27,487 nt of DNA from a virus. Position 1 is the stretch's first letter. The number at the start of each line of letters is the position of its first letter. The stretch lies in the IMG/VR virus record IMGVR_UViG_3300042398_000629, positions 1 to 27,487 of that record. One strand, written 5' to 3'. The position numbers and the translations under genes are program-made. The notes under the pieces are model-generated. The model made no database searches, had not been told where the DNA came from, and saw only the letters and a program-made list of their open reading frames with translations. This document shows, in pieces, positions 6,499 through 25,378 of this stretch.

Positions 6499-6561
6499 TT
6501 TCTTTGTTCTATCAAAACAAAGTGGTGGAGTAGACGACATTCAATGTCGGGCCTAAAATTA
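6499..6561 (+). other. Noncoding segment with two stem-loops
   Basis: Directly after the lipoprotein stop, CTTTGTT (6502-6508) can pair with AACAAAG (6516-6522), and CGACATT (6535-6541) pairs with AATGTCG (6543-6549) around a single base. The second is better seen as a DNA inverted repeat, since a one-base loop cannot form in RNA without losing inner pairs. With the terminator that follows, this gives roughly 90 structured, noncoding bases. It may be a structured 3' untranslated region or operator site. Confidence 0.4.
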
Positions 6562-6587
6562 AGGTGAGAGTTTTCTCACCTTTTTTT
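6562..6587 (+). terminator. Rho-independent terminator
   Basis: A perfect 8-bp stem AGGTGAGA / TCTCACCT (6562-6569 and 6574-6581) with loop GTTT is followed by a run of T. It ends the lipoprotein unit and separates it from the gene at 6620. Confidence 0.9.
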
Positions 6588-6619
6588 ATTTTTGACATAT
6601 TTATTAAGAAAAATATAAT

Positions 6620-7585
6620 ATGAAAAATAAATTTGTATTAACTGAAGAAGAATCTAAAAGGATTCTTTCACTACATAAGAAAAAAATTAATGAAGAAAGA
6701 CAAGAGGTAGATGAACTCGATACAGATCTTGGTGGTTGGACCGCTGCGGGTGCTGGTGGAGGTGCCGCTGCTGGTGCAGGAGTAGGGTTTATGGTTGGTG
6801 GACCTGCCGGTGCTGCGATTGGTGCTGTGATAGGTGCTGTTGGTGGTAGTATTGTTGGTTATGTTGCGAACGCAGATGGAAATCCTCAACAAATTGTTAA
6901 GAAAACACTTGTAAAATGTCGTACCGATAAGAAAATGTTTACAAAACCAACAAAATCAAAGGCAAGATTACAAGCGATTGCTGGTGATATTAGAAAAGCA
7001 CTTTCAGGGTGGGGATGGACAAATTTAGAGGACCTACAACGAGCGATTTCTAGTTGTGATACACTTGTGGATTTTTGTAATGTTTCATACATATATTACA
7101 ACATTAATGGTGAAACATTATTTACCGCTTTAGACGGTGATTTAGATGCGAATGAAGAGTGGACAAAATATGTTTTAGTACCATTAAAAAGATTAGCTAA
7201 AAATACTAAAGTAATACCACCAACACCGGTAAAAACTGATTGTAAAGATATTATTAAAAGTTTCACTGATGATGGGTATACACAAATTACTCTTGAGAGA
7301 TATCGTGAATTAGAAGGTGACAAAACTAGAATTAGAAAATACAAATATTGTCCGGCAACTAATAAAAATTTACATTTCGCAAAACTTACAGGAACTCAAA
7401 CAGGACCACCTAAACCAACACCTATTGTTACTGGTGGTGGAGGCGGTGATAACAACAACAACAATAACAATACCAACCAACAAGATGTACCTCAAGATGT
7501 TGACGTTATTAATCCATTTGGACAAGGTGGTGAACAAGAAGTACAAAGAATTACTGTAGATGATAAAATTTATTCTGAATTGTAA
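6620..7585 (+). CDS. Glycine-zipper protein with capsid-targeting-like N-terminus
   Basis: A 321-residue protein in four parts. (1) Residues 1-26: MKNKFVLTEEESKRILSLHK then KKINEE. This motif recurs in three nearby genes and contains an I-N-E tripeptide, the kind of site cut by T4-type prohead protease. (2) Residues 38-80: a long Gly/Ala-rich hydrophobic region (GAGGGAAAGAGVGFMVGG and following), a glycine zipper expected to insert in membranes. (3) A body of about 170 residues with several cysteines (CRTDKK, SSCDTLVDFC, YKYCPAT). (4) A GGGGGD and Asn-rich linker, then a C-terminal tail VINPFGQGGE...YSEL shared with the next gene. I infer an internal, possibly injected, virion protein. It follows a terminator and starts a three-gene unit. 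Exact function unknown. Confidence 0.85.
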   Translation: MKNKFVLTEEESKRILSLHKKKINEERQEVDELDTDLGGWTAAGAGGGAAAGAGVGFMVGGPAGAAIGAVIGAVGGSIVGYVANADGNPQQIVKKTLVKCRTDKKMFTKPTKSKARLQAIAGDIRKALSGWGWTNLEDLQRAISSCDTLVDFCNVSYIYYNINGETLFTALDGDLDANEEWTKYVLVPLKRLAKNTKVIPPTPVKTDCKDIIKSFTDDGYTQITLERYRELEGDKTRIRKYKYCPATNKNLHFAKLTGTQTGPPKPTPIVTGGGGGDNNNNNNNTNQQDVPQDVDVINPFGQGGEQEVQRITVDDKIYSEL

Positions 7586-7588
7586 TAA

Positions 7589-8572
7589 ATGATGCGAAAG
7601 TTAAATTTGATAGAAGGGGAAACCCAAAGAATATTGTCACTACATAAATCGGCAGTATTAAAAGAGAGTAGAAACTTAATCAATGAAGAGTCTTATAAAC
7701 TAACTTTAATAAAAAGAGACGGATATAATTCTGGAGTCCTTAAAAAAAACCTTAATACTAGTTCCTTCAAGGTTACGCAAAGTAATAAATATTATGTTGA
7801 AGGTGAAGTTAAAGTAAAAGAAGGGGGTGGTAGTAATTTTAGATTTGATTGTAAACGACCTCAAATAATGACCTTAACAACTGATCAAGTTAATGGTTCG
7901 GAATATGAGGTGAATGACAAACTCACAAGTGTTATAAAATGGTATTGTGCTGGAAAACCAAGTAAGAATAACGCAGGTGGAGGAAAAGGAACATCTGATA
8001 ACAACACCCCAAACAGTACTAAATATACTTTAGGAAGTGAACATAAGTTGTATGCTAGTAACAACAAAGCGGTTTTGAAGGTGTTGAAACAATCAACGAT
8101 GAACTTTTATCCTGAAAAAAACGGCGCAACACTGAAGGCTACGTTCTTGAGTGATAATAAAACTGATTTAAATGTTTGGTATAATTGCGGAACTGGTAAA
8201 TTTTCAGCAAAAAACATATTACCTGTAATTGATCCCACAACAAATCAAACCATACCTGCTGGTCAGAAAACATTCACTTATTATACCGACAAACCATTCA
8301 GAGAGTTCCTACAGAAAAAATGTGAAATATTGAAAAAAGGATCGAAAACAGAAACATCACCTGATGGTACTGATTCAGAAAGTTCTGATGGCACTGTTTA
8401 TACCGGTGGTGGAGGTGGTAATGGGCAAACATACCCATTTGACTACCAAACCGTAGCGAATGCAATCCAACAGAAGTTCCCTGATGATGATGTGGTAAAT
8501 CCATTTGGTCAGGGTAATGAAGCAGAAACCCAATTAGTTAATGTAACTGCCGATATGTATAGTGGATTATAA
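7589..8572 (+). CDS. Paralogue of the 6620 protein, same N- and C-terminal modules
   Basis: A 327-residue protein three bases downstream of the previous gene. Its start, MMRKLNLIEGETQRILSLHK, shares RILSLHK with its neighbour and is followed by two possible L/I-x-E sites (VLKE and LINE, before residue 35). Its end, VVNPFGQGNEAETQ...YSGL, matches the neighbour's tail, again after a Gly-rich linker (GGGGGNG). The middle is different: no glycine zipper, mainly predicted beta strands, with pairs of cysteines (FDCKRPQ, WYCAGK, YNCGTG, KKCEIL). The common ends with different middles suggest that the ends are targeting or assembly tags. I infer a packaged or structural virion protein. ATG at 7592 is an alternative start. 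Confidence 0.85.
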   Translation: MMRKLNLIEGETQRILSLHKSAVLKESRNLINEESYKLTLIKRDGYNSGVLKKNLNTSSFKVTQSNKYYVEGEVKVKEGGGSNFRFDCKRPQIMTLTTDQVNGSEYEVNDKLTSVIKWYCAGKPSKNNAGGGKGTSDNNTPNSTKYTLGSEHKLYASNNKAVLKVLKQSTMNFYPEKNGATLKATFLSDNKTDLNVWYNCGTGKFSAKNILPVIDPTTNQTIPAGQKTFTYYTDKPFREFLQKKCEILKKGSKTETSPDGTDSESSDGTVYTGGGGGNGQTYPFDYQTVANAIQQKFPDDDVVNPFGQGNEAETQLVNVTADMYSGL

Positions 8573-8591
8573 AATTTTAAAAAACAAAAAA

Positions 8592-8801
8592 ATGAAAAAA
8601 ATACAGATAACTGAAGACCAATATAGAAAGATAAAAGATTATATGATTGAAAGTGCGATCTTGAATGAACAAAGTAAACAAGAGGTTACGGACATCCAAA
8701 ACAGATTGAACAAACACTTTAATGCCGGGCTTAAGGTTGATGGTATATCCGGCCCAAAAACAATACAGGCGATTAAACAACATTTAGGTCTTGATGTATA
8801 A
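8592..8801 (+). CDS. Mini peptidoglycan-binding protein with capsid-targeting-like N-terminus
   Basis: A 69-residue protein. The N-terminus MKKIQITEDQYRKIKDYMIE plus SAILNEQ carries the same kind of motif as the two upstream genes and ends in L-N-E. The remaining 45 residues match a peptidoglycan-binding domain of the PG_binding_1 type: EVTDIQNRLNKHF, then LKVDGISGPKTIQAIKQHLG, with the family's hallmark V-D-G-x-x-G-P-x-T. A GTG at 8562 would extend it by 10 residues into the previous gene; ATG at 8592 after an A-rich stretch is preferred. If cut after LNE, the product is almost exactly the wall-binding domain. It is the last gene before a terminator. Confidence 0.85.
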   Translation: MKKIQITEDQYRKIKDYMIESAILNEQSKQEVTDIQNRLNKHFNAGLKVDGISGPKTIQAIKQHLGLDV

Positions 8802-8822
8802 TCAAATTGAAAAAAAAAACAT

Positions 8823-8847
8823 AAGGGAGAATTATCTCCCTTTTTTT
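8823..8847 (+). terminator. Rho-independent terminator
   Basis: Stem AAGGGAGA / TCTCCCTT (8823-8830 and 8835-8842), loop ATTA, then seven T. It closes the 6620-8801 unit. Confidence 0.92.
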
Positions 8848-8863
8848 ATGCCGTTTTTTTTCT

Positions 8864-8871
8864 TACCTTTG
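8864..8871 (+). promoter_or_regulatory. TACCTTTG -7 element, 4 nt before ATG
   Basis: TACCTTTG fits TAnnTTTG and ends exactly 4 bases before the ATG at 8876. No TTG is seen at the expected -33 distance, where the terminator T-run and a second T-run lie. The predicted transcript is nearly leaderless. Confidence 0.65.
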
Positions 8872-8875
8872 TGGT

Positions 8876-9274
8876 ATGAAAACATTATACATAGTTCGTG
8901 GTATACCTGGTAGTGGTAAATCAACATTCGCAAAATCTTTAGGTGGAACACATTTTGAGGCCGACATGTTTTTTATGAAAGACGGCGAGTACAAATATGA
9001 TATGTTTAAAATCAAAGAAGCTCATAAGTGGTGTCAAGATAGTGTGAACACTGCGATGATCATGAACAACACTGCGGGTCTGAATGAGACTATTGTTGTG
9101 TCAAACACATTCACACAGGAGTGGGAAATGGAACCATACTTCAAAATGGCAGAACTAAACGAGTACAGAGTATTTTCAATCATAGTGGAAAATAGACACG
9201 GTGGAGTGAATGAACACAATGTTCCTGAAGAAGTATTAACTAAAATGCGTGAGCGTTTTGAAATAAAATTATGA
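8876..9274 (+). CDS. P-loop kinase (polynucleotide-kinase-like AAA_33 type)
   Basis: A 132-residue nucleotide-binding protein. MKTLYIVRGIPGSGKSTFAK has a Walker A motif GIPGSGKS at 9-16, and FEADMFFM near residue 32 fits the Asp region of zeta-toxin and polynucleotide-kinase-like P-loop kinases. VVSNTFTQEWEM is the typical strand after the kinase helix. It is shorter than full T4 Pnk and has no phosphatase domain, but its stop overlaps the start of a calcineurin-like phosphoesterase, so kinase and phosphatase could act together on RNA or DNA ends. The substrate is inference. Transcription probably starts at the adjacent TACCTTTG promoter. Confidence 0.88.
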   Translation: MKTLYIVRGIPGSGKSTFAKSLGGTHFEADMFFMKDGEYKYDMFKIKEAHKWCQDSVNTAMIMNNTAGLNETIVVSNTFTQEWEMEPYFKMAELNEYRVFSIIVENRHGGVNEHNVPEEVLTKMRERFEIKL

Positions 9275-9927
9275 TGAAATTTGATAAATTAATGACAAGT
9301 GGTATTGTGTGGATCACATCTGATACTCACTACCATCACAAAAATATTTGTCGTGGAGTTACAAACTGGCGTACACAAGACGGTAAAATACCGGTAAGTT
9401 CAACACGAGATTTCCAAGACCTTGATGAAATGGATGCTGCGATCATAAACAACATCAACTCAAAGGTTGGTCAGGACGATACCTTAATTCACTTGGGTGA
9501 TGTTGCTTTTGGTGGGTTTGATAAATTAGAGCAGTTTTTAGATCGTTTGATCTGTAAAAACATCTACTTGGTTTTAGGTAACCATGATCACCACATTAAA
9601 AATGACAGATCATTTATTAAAGACCGATTCATGTCAGTCCAAAATTATTTGGAGGTAAACATAGATGATGAAAACTTTGTCTTATGTCATTACCCATTAC
9701 AGAGTTGGCATGGTCTTAATAAAGGTGTCATCCATCTTCACGGACATGTTCACTTATCCGCTCAGAATAAGTGGGGTAATGGAAAACGATTAGATGTTGG
9801 TATGGATGGTAATAATATGCAACCATATAAAATTACGGAGATTGTTCATATGATGGATCGTCGTGAGATTGGTTCAGATATGAGTAATGATCACCACATG
9901 GATGATTTAGTTGGGGTTGTAGGTTAA
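9271..9927 (+). CDS. Calcineurin-like metallophosphoesterase
   Basis: All metallophosphoesterase motifs are present in order: SDTHYHH (17-23), HLGDVAFGG (74-82), LGNHDH (102-107), CHYP (139-142) and HLHGHVH (155-161), giving the ligands for a two-metal centre. At 218 residues it is a single-domain enzyme with an acidic, His-rich tail. It overlaps the kinase gene (ATGA at 9271-9274); ATG at 9274 is an equal alternative. Kinase and phosphoesterase together recall the two end-healing domains of bacterial Pnkp, but general nucleotide phosphoesterase activity is also possible. A 12-bp near-perfect inverted repeat (9910-9921 with 9930-9941) spans the stop codon. Confidence 0.93.
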   Translation: MMKFDKLMTSGIVWITSDTHYHHKNICRGVTNWRTQDGKIPVSSTRDFQDLDEMDAAIINNINSKVGQDDTLIHLGDVAFGGFDKLEQFLDRLICKNIYLVLGNHDHHIKNDRSFIKDRFMSVQNYLEVNIDDENFVLCHYPLQSWHGLNKGVIHLHGHVHLSAQNKWGNGKRLDVGMDGNNMQPYKITEIVHMMDRREIGSDMSNDHHMDDLVGVVG

Positions 9928-9941
9928 ATTACAACTCCAAC
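9910..9941 (+). terminator. Stem-loop at the 3' end of the phosphoesterase gene
   Basis: GTTGGGGTTGTA (9910-9921) pairs with TACAACTCCAAC (9930-9941) with one G-T wobble and an 8-base loop. No T-run follows, so this may be a 3' stabilising hairpin or weak terminator. Confidence 0.5.
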
Positions 9942-9953
9942 ATATTTATTAGT

Positions 9954-11183
9954 ATGAAAAACATTCTTATTACTGAAAATCAATTACGATTAATTACTGA
10001 GGCTTTAGGTGTTCCTGACTCAATTCTTAATATTGCTGAAGAGGTTTTTGTTATGATTTCTCTACACCTTAAATCAATTACTGAAAAGGAAGATGAATAT
10101 GTATTTCACAATTATCCTAATTACGAAATAGGTGGTAAGAAAAAAATCAAAATTGAAGAAATTGAAACAACAATAAATATTGAGCACTTCCCACAACACA
10201 CCGGAAAACCTGAGATTTTATCAATGGGAATGGGGCAGAGTTTCCATTTTGATAGAGATGTGAAATTGAAAAAAATTGTACCATCGGTAATTGCTGAATT
10301 AGAAGTTACTTTTGTTGTTGGTGATGAGTGGGAACCTGAGGATCTATATTGGGTATATGTTAAGGGAAAAGACAAACACTTACCTGCTATTGCTCACGAA
10401 CTAAAACACAAGTATGACAAACAAGTTAAAGAGTTAGATTTAATAGGTCGTGATGCTGAATATCAAACTACACAACGATATGGTAATTTTGGTATACCTG
10501 CGATAGATCATAAATTTATGAGGTATTTGTATTATGCTCACATGACGGAAAACTTGGTTAGACCGGTTGAAATTGCTTCTGAAATGAGACTTAATAATGT
10601 AACCAAGTCACAATTTTATAAGTTCTTAACTAACAACAGAGTTTACCAAGAATTACAAGAGATTAAAAACTTTACCTTTGAAGACTTCGTACGAATGATC
10701 GGAGAAAGTATGGGTAGAGTAGATGCTCTTTTAGATCATTTCGGTGACGATACGTCAAATATGACTGATGACGAAAAAATCAAAAGAGTCTTAGAGTTGG
10801 TGTACATCAACTTAGTTAACAACAAGATGGAGATTTTTATGGATATGACTACTAATCGTAGAGAAGAATTAGAAAACCAATTAAGACAAATGATGGGACA
10901 ACCCGTTGACCCCATGAAAGGTGACATAGGTGACGTTAGAAAGAAGTTCTTCAACTACATTACTAAATTCAGAGACAAACCGATAGAGTTCTTCAAATCT
11001 GAAATCGAGAATTTAAATTACACCGCAAACAAAATATTGAAACGAATTTCTAAATTATATGCTATGGCTCAAGACGATGTACAAGTATCGGAATCAATTA
11101 TTAATTGGGAACTTCACCAACAATTAATGGAGAAAAAATACGGTAAAAGAAAAATAGAGACTGAGATAAGGTATAAGCGTTAA
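9954..11183 (+). CDS. HExxH zinc-metallopeptidase-like protein with capsid-targeting-like N-terminus
   Basis: A 409-residue protein. It starts MKNILITENQLRLITEALG, the same kind of motif as the genes at 6620-8801, with a possible cleavage site after L-I-T-E (residue 16). AIAHELKHKYDK contains HELKH (148-152), the HExxH zinc-peptidase signature. About 55 residues later ENLVRPVEIASEMR (199-212) resembles the segment that supplies a third Glu ligand in such enzymes (E206 is the candidate). The C-terminal half is helical and charged and may bind a partner. No signal peptide. I infer a packaged protease that is delivered into the host, or that acts during assembly. The metallopeptidase call rests on the motif and its setting. 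Confidence 0.75.
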   Translation: MKNILITENQLRLITEALGVPDSILNIAEEVFVMISLHLKSITEKEDEYVFHNYPNYEIGGKKKIKIEEIETTINIEHFPQHTGKPEILSMGMGQSFHFDRDVKLKKIVPSVIAELEVTFVVGDEWEPEDLYWVYVKGKDKHLPAIAHELKHKYDKQVKELDLIGRDAEYQTTQRYGNFGIPAIDHKFMRYLYYAHMTENLVRPVEIASEMRLNNVTKSQFYKFLTNNRVYQELQEIKNFTFEDFVRMIGESMGRVDALLDHFGDDTSNMTDDEKIKRVLELVYINLVNNKMEIFMDMTTNRREELENQLRQMMGQPVDPMKGDIGDVRKKFFNYITKFRDKPIEFFKSEIENLNYTANKILKRISKLYAMAQDDVQVSESIINWELHQQLMEKKYGKRKIETEIRYKR

Positions 11184-24216: not shown

Positions 24217-24435
24217 ATGATTAAAAGTTTAACAACAAAATGGTGGGGAGTCACCATCCTGTCACTTATCAATCTTTATCTCATAGGCTTATTCTCAGAA
24301 TATATCTTTAGTAGAGAGGTTGCGAAAGAAGTTCAAATTGTCCTAACGTTGGGAGTTTTGGTTAGTACAATTTATATTATAAAACTCGTAGTTAACTTTA
24401 TTTACAATTATTTAAAAAGAGAGAAAAATGATTAG
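24217..24435 (+). CDS. Small two-helix membrane protein, 72 aa
   Basis: A 72-residue protein with two membrane segments (VTILSLINLYLIGLFSEYIF and IVLTLGVLVSTIYIIKLVV) joined by a short charged loop, ending LKREKND. It overlaps the SPFH gene start by 8 bases, so it may partner the SPFH protein in the membrane. No family recognised. Confidence 0.75.
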   Translation: MIKSLTTKWWGVTILSLINLYLIGLFSEYIFSREVAKEVQIVLTLGVLVSTIYIIKLVVNFIYNYLKREKND

Positions 24436-25378
24436 TACATTAATTTTTTTAGGATTTACAATCGCGGCTGGTCTCATCGCATTAAAAACACGAGACAAAA
24501 TGTATGTTGAAACAACTAACCGATGGAATGACACGGTACAAAAGTTCCAAGTATCATGGCTTATGAAACCATTAATTCTTTTCATTACAGGTTTGATTCT
24601 ATCTGCAATGCAACCTTACGCAATTGAGAAGATTGATGCAGGACACAAAGGTTTAAAGATTAACTTAATTGGTAATCAGCGTGGTGTGTCAAGTTACCAG
24701 TATAAAACAGGATGGGTTTTATTTAACACTTGGACGGAACAAGTATTGGAGTTCCCAACTTACCAACAACACATTGAGTATGAAGATCAAGGTGTGATCC
24801 TTAAAGGCGGATTCTCCGCAACGATCAAACCAACATTCAACTACTCTTTACGAGAAGATGCGATTGGGGATATGTTCGTTAATTTAAGAAAACCAATTCA
24901 AGAAGTGGAACAAGGATGGTTGAAAAACGCAATCATCGGAGCGGTAAATGACGTAGCAAACACTTGGGAAGTAGATAGTATATTTAATCACCGACAAGCA
25001 TTTGAAAACGCAATCGTTATTGAGTGTAATAATCGTTTATCTAAGTGGTTTAATGTATCTCAACTACGAACTAATATCGTACCACCAGACGCATTACAAG
25101 AATCAATTATCAATAAGACAAAGGCGATCCAACAAGCTGAAGCATCCGAACAACAAGCGTTGGCGGCAATTGCAGAAGGTAAACGAAAAGTTGCGGTGGC
25201 ACGAGCTGACTCAGCGGAAACGATCATCAACGCACAGGCAGCGGCACTTGCAATCAAGATCAAACAGACTCAGTTATCACCTCTGTACATTGAATATATA
25301 AAAGCCCAAGCTTGGAATGGGGAACTTCCTAAAACTGTGGCGGGAGGATCAGGAACCTTCCTTAACATAAAGAACTAA
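24428..25378 (+). CDS. SPFH/band-7 (prohibitin-like) membrane protein
   Basis: A 316-residue protein. Two hydrophobic segments lie near the N-terminus (about 3-18 and 47-63), followed by an SPFH domain: IDAGHKGLKINLIGNQRGVS, ILKGGFSATIKPTFNYSL, and ALQESIINKTKAIQQAEAS. The C-terminal part is an Ala/Gln-rich coiled coil (AALAIKIKQTQLSPLYIEYI). This order is that of band-7/prohibitin proteins, which form large membrane-bound rings and scaffolds. Its role in a phage is unknown; host counterparts keep membrane proteases in check. A terminator follows the stop. Confidence 0.88.
   Translation: MISTLIFLGFTIAAGLIALKTRDKMYVETTNRWNDTVQKFQVSWLMKPLILFITGLILSAMQPYAIEKIDAGHKGLKINLIGNQRGVSSYQYKTGWVLFNTWTEQVLEFPTYQQHIEYEDQGVILKGGFSATIKPTFNYSLREDAIGDMFVNLRKPIQEVEQGWLKNAIIGAVNDVANTWEVDSIFNHRQAFENAIVIECNNRLSKWFNVSQLRTNIVPPDALQESIINKTKAIQQAEASEQQALAAIAEGKRKVAVARADSAETIINAQAAALAIKIKQTQLSPLYIEYIKAQAWNGELPKTVAGGSGTFLNIKN

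Follow-up and report, generated by a model that had tools for sequence, protein, structure and literature searches.

A set of short N-terminal peptides, here called tags, is shared by otherwise unrelated proteins in a group of giant T4-like phages that probably infect Bacteroidota. Four open reading frames (ORFs) of a 27.5-kb virus record (IMG/VR record IMGVR_UViG_3300042398_000629, positions 1 to 27,487; hereafter the window) carry such tags and start at 6620, 7589, 8592 and 9954. The tags are likely to be capsid-targeting propeptides of the T4 type, greatly expanded and cut by a prohead protease, and judging from the sequences the phages probably load a large protein cargo into the head for delivery into the bacterium. 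In T4, the internal proteins IPI, IPII and IPIII and Alt carry a capsid targeting sequence (CTS), and the protease gp21 recognises (I/L)-x-E (PMC9026906). A first-pass annotation had proposed that the four window proteins form an injected set. That reading is strengthened because a late-promoter motif, codon-level selection and a junction kept across tag swaps all agree with it. Recurrence of the tags and the presence of gp21 in relatives also support it; the supposed paralogy of the first two products and the limit to a set of four do not survive.

Tag recurrence on unrelated proteins

In an unbiased test, residues 2-20 were compared among proteins with dissimilar bodies, and internal windows served as the control. 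Similar N-terminal pairs numbered 58 in a 272-kb relative (G013), 36 in G018 and 10 in G010; the corresponding internal counts were 0-1, 0 and 0-1. Applied to T4 as a positive control, the same pairwise test recovers IPII/IPIII through their capsid targeting sequence. At the strict threshold it finds no N-terminal excess in Mel-JY01, PTm1 or S-PM2. Signal peptides make up part of the excess in the cultured Flavobacterium phage vB_FspM_immuto_2-6A (NC_055915; immuto). The tags themselves lack the basic N-terminus followed by a hydrophobic core that marks Sec signal peptides: by inspection they are K/R/E-rich, and true signal peptides clustered separately. As a separate observation, three Mel-JY01 proteins (PP395634, 60276-62718) have MIKL(K/M)SLL(Q/K)E-like starts, each followed by a motif resembling SDRVWH(L/V)T; that they are ADP-ribosyltransferase-like and comparable to T4 Alt is a guess only.

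The 272-kb relative has 46 tagged ORFs out of 323, or about 14% of its genes. By the same tag rule, a 77.8-kb contig near-identical to the window and reaching further upstream (G001) has 9, the window's own counted in. The tags fall into classes: MKIIITExQ.., MKRIVRLTESDLxRIVRRVINE, MNLQEQIRKVLKEE / MNLQEQISRIQSMMGVIKE, MKELIRHILKEE, and MKxxFxLTEEESKRILSLHK. The recurrence on unrelated proteins that an injected set would lead one to expect is seen, with some carriers beside gp23. Up to 46 very diverse carriers per contig replace the small wall-and-membrane set first proposed. Domains found on carriers in Pfam and PHROGs are peptidoglycan (PG)-binding, VanY carboxypeptidase, a GDSL/PG-binding/SLT enzyme, a weak DHH match and a weak glycine-zipper match; most carriers match no family in either collection. 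A role at wall and membrane fits some of the cargo, not all of it.

An alternative, which we regard as unlikely, is that the tagged proteins are core or structural components of the head: gp21 would process them, and they would then remain there or disappear from it without being injected. Targeting to the head would still hold in that case. The T4 protease trims core proteins too (PMC9026906), tagged genes adjoin gp23 in G013 and G019, and immuto encodes a tagged 73-residue protein between portal and protease, all of which would suit such components. The carriers, however, are dozens of variable, lineage-specific proteins with enzyme domains (PG-binding, VanY, GDSL/SLT, DHH). They resemble the variable internal proteins of T4, unlike a conserved scaffold.

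The tag-body junction and the head protease

The motif (I/L)-x-E lies within residues 10-34 in 112 of 124 tagged proteins (90%) and in 255 of 895 untagged ones (28%). This enrichment is partly circular because tags were picked by similarity; the depletion just downstream, in residues 35-59 (15% of tagged against 32% of untagged proteins, p=4e-5), is not. (I/L)-x-D and (I/L)-x-Q are not enriched in residues 10-34 of tagged proteins. An independent DNA-pattern scan for class A tags, whose pattern covers the first ~15 codons only, returned 131 distinct ORFs; 130 have (I/L/V)-x-E at residues 16-30, and the glutamate falls exactly at residue 22 in 115. Among orthologues of the 9954 product, (I/L)-x-E16 is invariant in 26/26, two of them with longer tags, and precedes (A/V/I/K)LGVP.

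Within protein families, tags of different length and class are swapped and the junction (marked by a slash) is kept. A DHH protein family has ...KLLNE/SGIRG, MNKKLITE/SGIRN and MKMLIKE/TGIRD. The "QDD" family has MKNFIKNFLLE/QDDN, MSIKNLLSNLLIE/QDDS (LLIE) and MKKVLRINEGDLISLIKNIIIE/QDDN (IIIE), and a protein encoded near gp23 has KKVLGE/DKDMRSNRYMFF versus KKVIKE/TSEEHSSRYMFF.

Relatives of the 9954 product occur on 66 IMG/VR loci, 8 of which match its C-terminal end only; among cultured phages tblastn gave no match to it. Head genes were searched for on 35 relative contigs. Four extend to the head region (up to 272 kb), and all four carry both a gp21-type protease (PF03420) and gp23 (PF07068). 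Where they could be read, the gp23 propeptides end FLINE/A and YLINE/A (LINE/A). Since the contigs of the window stop short of the head genes, the protease expected from the first-pass annotation is presumed for this phage on the strength of relatives whose 9954 products are 46-49% identical. Among large contigs, gp21 scored above cut-off in 13 of 16 with class A tags and in 1 of 12 controls chosen by tRNA pattern (one-sided hypergeometric about 2e-4, somewhat confounded by the greater average length of the tagged contigs).

This evidence bears on the possibility that the tags address another phage-made site (membrane, replication compartment, or tail/baseplate) during infection, with (I/L)-x-E belonging to an amphipathic helix and not marking a cleavage site. 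The tags do look amphipathic, and their carriers include wall-active enzymes and a glycine-zipper membrane protein. Such an address is nevertheless unlikely, given that (I/L)-x-E stays at the junction while tag length and class change, is depleted just beyond the tag and matches the end of the gp23 propeptide in the same phages, and that class A tags go with gp21-bearing contigs.

Selection on the tag peptide

In the larger tag sets, the ratio of nonsynonymous to synonymous differences (pN/pS) over codons 2-17 is 0.34-0.5; synonymous divergence, at about 0.5-0.6 per site, is near saturation. Downstream of the tag pN/pS exceeds 1. Recent DNA copying is excluded as the whole cause of the similarity because the tag peptide is conserved while synonymous sites are near saturation. 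That the N-termini arose by recent duplication of DNA, or mark recombination joints where genes begin (a shared promoter or leader), with a peptide of no function, is thus highly improbable: tagged genes are often clustered and a few neighbouring tags are near-identical in DNA and upstream (the RLTESDL set, 70% identical over the upstream 20 nucleotides), but upstream identity is just 28-57% in the remaining sets, and the same classes are spread over many different contigs.

A late-promoter-like motif

The motif TATTTAT(A/T), or TATTTATW, is strongly over-represented 5' of genes. In G013 it precedes the portal, gp21, gp22 and putative sheath and tube genes. In immuto it stands before the portal, terminase, sheath, tube and tape-measure genes, and occurs at 9 of 20 structural genes compared with 2 of 17 genes for replication or metabolism. 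Tagged genes in G013 have it more often than other genes (26/46 vs 57/277, p=1.6e-6), and it precedes 6 of 7 tagged genes in each of G027 and G023. The window has only five copies on its + strand, two of them preceding tagged units, 22 nucleotides before 6620 and 11 nucleotides before 9954. Gene 8876, between the tagged units, has TAnnTTTG, the host-type (Bacteroidota) promoter form, in place of TATTTATW. Judged by this motif, the tagged genes appear to be expressed late together with the head genes. The 77.8-kb contig carries a sigma factor gene. A perfect TTGACA-16-TATAAT promoter at 6592-6619 was rejected: transcription from it would begin within the gene, and promoter-like hits in this AT-rich region are no more frequent than in shuffles.

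The four tagged genes of the window

The coordinates and N-termini of the four ORFs were confirmed, as was an (I/L)-x-E near each N-terminus: INE at residues 23-25 (6620), LKE at 24-26 and INE at 31-33 (7589), LNE at 24-26 (8592) and ITE at 14-16 (9954). The first three genes indeed form one unit (6620-8801) flanked by two hairpin terminators. The features are as follows.

6561-6582, +: hairpin terminator 5' of the first tagged unit
6598-6605, +: TATTTATT late-promoter-like motif, 22 nucleotides 5' of the 6620 start; same motif before portal, sheath and tube genes in relatives
6620-6694, +: glycine-zipper protein, N-terminal tag (MKNKFVLTEEESKRILSLHKKKINE); predicted cut follows INE25
6695-7582, +: predicted mature glycine-zipper protein (Gly-zipper_Omp E=2.3e-4, below Pfam cut-off)
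7469-7582, +: C-terminal 38-residue peptide common to the 6620 and 7589 products, 6620 copy (53% identical)
7589-7666, +: N-terminal tag of the second protein (MMRKLNLIEGETQRILSLHKSAVLKE), predicted cut after LKE26 or INE33
8459-8569, +: C-terminal peptide common to the 6620 and 7589 products, 7589 copy
8592-8669, +: small peptidoglycan-binding protein, N-terminal tag (MKKIQITEDQYRKIKDYMIESAILNE); predicted cut follows LNE26
8670-8798, +: predicted mature body of 8592, PG_binding_1 domain at residues 29-63 (E=4.1e-5)
8823-8842, +: hairpin terminator 3' of the first tagged unit
9943-9950, +: TATTTATT late-promoter-like motif, 11 nucleotides 5' of the 9954 start; hairpin 9910-9941 just upstream
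9954-10001, +: N-terminal tag of the 9954 product (MKNILITENQLRLITE), predicted cut after E16, before ALGVP
10002-11180, +: putative metallopeptidase body
10395-10409, +: HELKH (HExxH), putative zinc site; H148, E149 and H152 invariant
11091-11180, +: C-terminal peptide of the 9954 product (ESIINWELHQQLMEKKYGKRKIET...), highly conserved; low predicted local distance difference test (pLDDT) score; also on an unrelated 172-residue HExxH protein that other phages have at this locus

The 6620 and 7589 products had been called paralogues. BLASTP aligns only their tags (33 residues) and last 38 residues, and the middles are unrelated. The glycine-zipper label of 6620 has a sub-threshold domain match behind it, and the peptidoglycan-binding domain of 8592 scores above the Pfam cut-off and starts three residues past the predicted cut. 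The metallopeptidase label of 9954 keeps its invariant HExxH (AHELKH) and gains no match in Pfam or PDB folds. An AlphaFold2 model of this product (predicted template modelling score 0.61) places residues 1-14 (pLDDT<50) and the C-terminal peptide outside the confident fold. A PDB fold search with the model gave no match at E<0.1, so the protein stays a putative metallopeptidase. The ESIINWELHQQLMEKKYGKRKIET peptide is common to this 409-residue HExxH protein and the unrelated, untagged 172-residue HExxH protein (loci L066-L070).

Elsewhere in the window, 5-553 is the 3' portion of a tagged family ORF whose tag lies outside the window (77.8-kb contig, 63019-64233, MSIKNLLSNLLIE/QDDS). The phage also encodes a protein resembling glutamine synthetase (Gln-synt_C E=1.6e-18) at 1545-2663, and an SPFH/Band 7 membrane protein (PF01145 E=1.2e-13) at 24428-25378.

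A proposed model for cargo loading and delivery

Under the capsid-targeting reading, tagged proteins would be made late alongside the head proteins, and each tag, some 16-33 residues long, would attach its protein to the prohead core. Cleavage after (I/L)-x-E by a gp21-like prohead protease would follow. The mature body would be left inside the head and ejected with the DNA, and the ejected bodies may act at the cell wall or membrane. The device would be an expanded one, in which several interchangeable tag classes serve dozens of unrelated proteins per genome.

Several observations weigh against this reading. A search of the open-access literature found no virion proteomics or N-terminal data for these phages. 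The window contig and its 77.8-kb twin contain neither gp21 nor gp23, and neither reaches the head genes. S-PM2 and Mel-JY01 carry gp21 yet show no tag expansion. The tags are not homologous to the T4 CTS MKTYQEFIAEA, and no T4 ORF scores as tagged. The association with TATTTATW is significant singly in some genomes only and weaker elsewhere. Some ITE-Q proteins (for example MKIIITESQKKKLLNDF) have no clear second (I/L)-x-E, and avoidance of the motif in whole mature bodies is mild and not decisive (observed/expected 0.97 vs 1.15). The untagged 172-residue protein takes the place of the metallopeptidase at this locus in other phages, and the TATTTATT in front of it is unchanged.

The system may tentatively extend to LR756502, an uncultured 642-kb phage. 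There, 128 ORFs have MK(H/Y)LKxYxxFE(S)-like starts, and their bodies fall into 108 BLAST families. In LR756502.1 (L201-L233), 82 of 923 ORFs close with R(D/E/N)x(K/N)(I/L)xx(I/V)L, compared with 9 of 4596 internal control windows; this C-terminal motif is almost never found on MKHLKxY-tagged ORFs (1 vs 126). The extension is tentative because the protease match in this phage is weak. More broadly, modular exchangeable N-terminal tags, possibly with separate C-terminal ones, may load tens of proteins, so that the virion is a bulk protein-delivery device with cargo readable from sequence; we hold the case for this to be evenly balanced. On this reading, the load would amount to about 14% of the genes of the 272-kb relative and, perhaps, to more than 120 proteins in the 642-kb phage.

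If the capsid-targeting reading is true, sequence alone would reveal the injected cargo of a widespread, mostly uncultured phage group. In each genome, dozens of small "hypothetical" proteins would become proteins delivered at the moment of infection, joining the class of the anti-restriction protein IPI and Alt of T4. It would also show a way in which T4-type head packaging scales up, and supply new short tags with which proteins of choice could be loaded into phage heads.

Comparison with known systems

Searches of the open-access literature turned up such tags only in T4 and the phiKZ-like phages. The ejection proteins of phiKZ and SPN3US carry prohead-protease propeptides (PMC5694885). These are also giant phages in which many head proteins are processed after x-x-E motifs, and SPN3US gp53 and gp54 have an identical 15-residue N-terminus in common. 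Their propeptides, however, are mostly longer than 100 residues and not common to dozens of proteins, whereas the tags described here are short (16-33 residues in the window) and shared, and the relatives have T4-type gp23 and gp21.

Immuto is a cultured, T4-like phage with gp21 and gp23, TATTTATA before structural genes, and the recurring N-termini MENFDLKKFLVEN, MKKSQLRQIIKE and MKKQILSEQFRRMQKLAGIITE. It differs in having only about ten such proteins and other tag types, and its major capsid protein propeptide seems to end IVSE/A. No published virion proteome was found for it. An immuto protein encoded beside the prohead protease (123578-124660) has FIAEAR near its N-terminus, as do T4 IPII/IPIII.

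The T4 CTS proteins offer a precedent. At the sequence level, both systems have a short N-terminal peptide common to unrelated proteins and ending in (I/L)-x-E. Variable cargo and late expression (here by promoter motif) are common to both, and the relatives that extend to the head region encode a gp21-type protease. The sole tag resembling the T4 CTS is MKHLKxYKIFES of the 642-kb phage; such homology is typical of T4 members and is not needed for the mechanism. Unlike the T4 CTS, the tags of the window group form at least four interchangeable classes. In contrast to the roughly four carriers of T4, up to 46 proteins per contig, several of them wall-active-looking, carry a tag that is predicted to direct them into the head.

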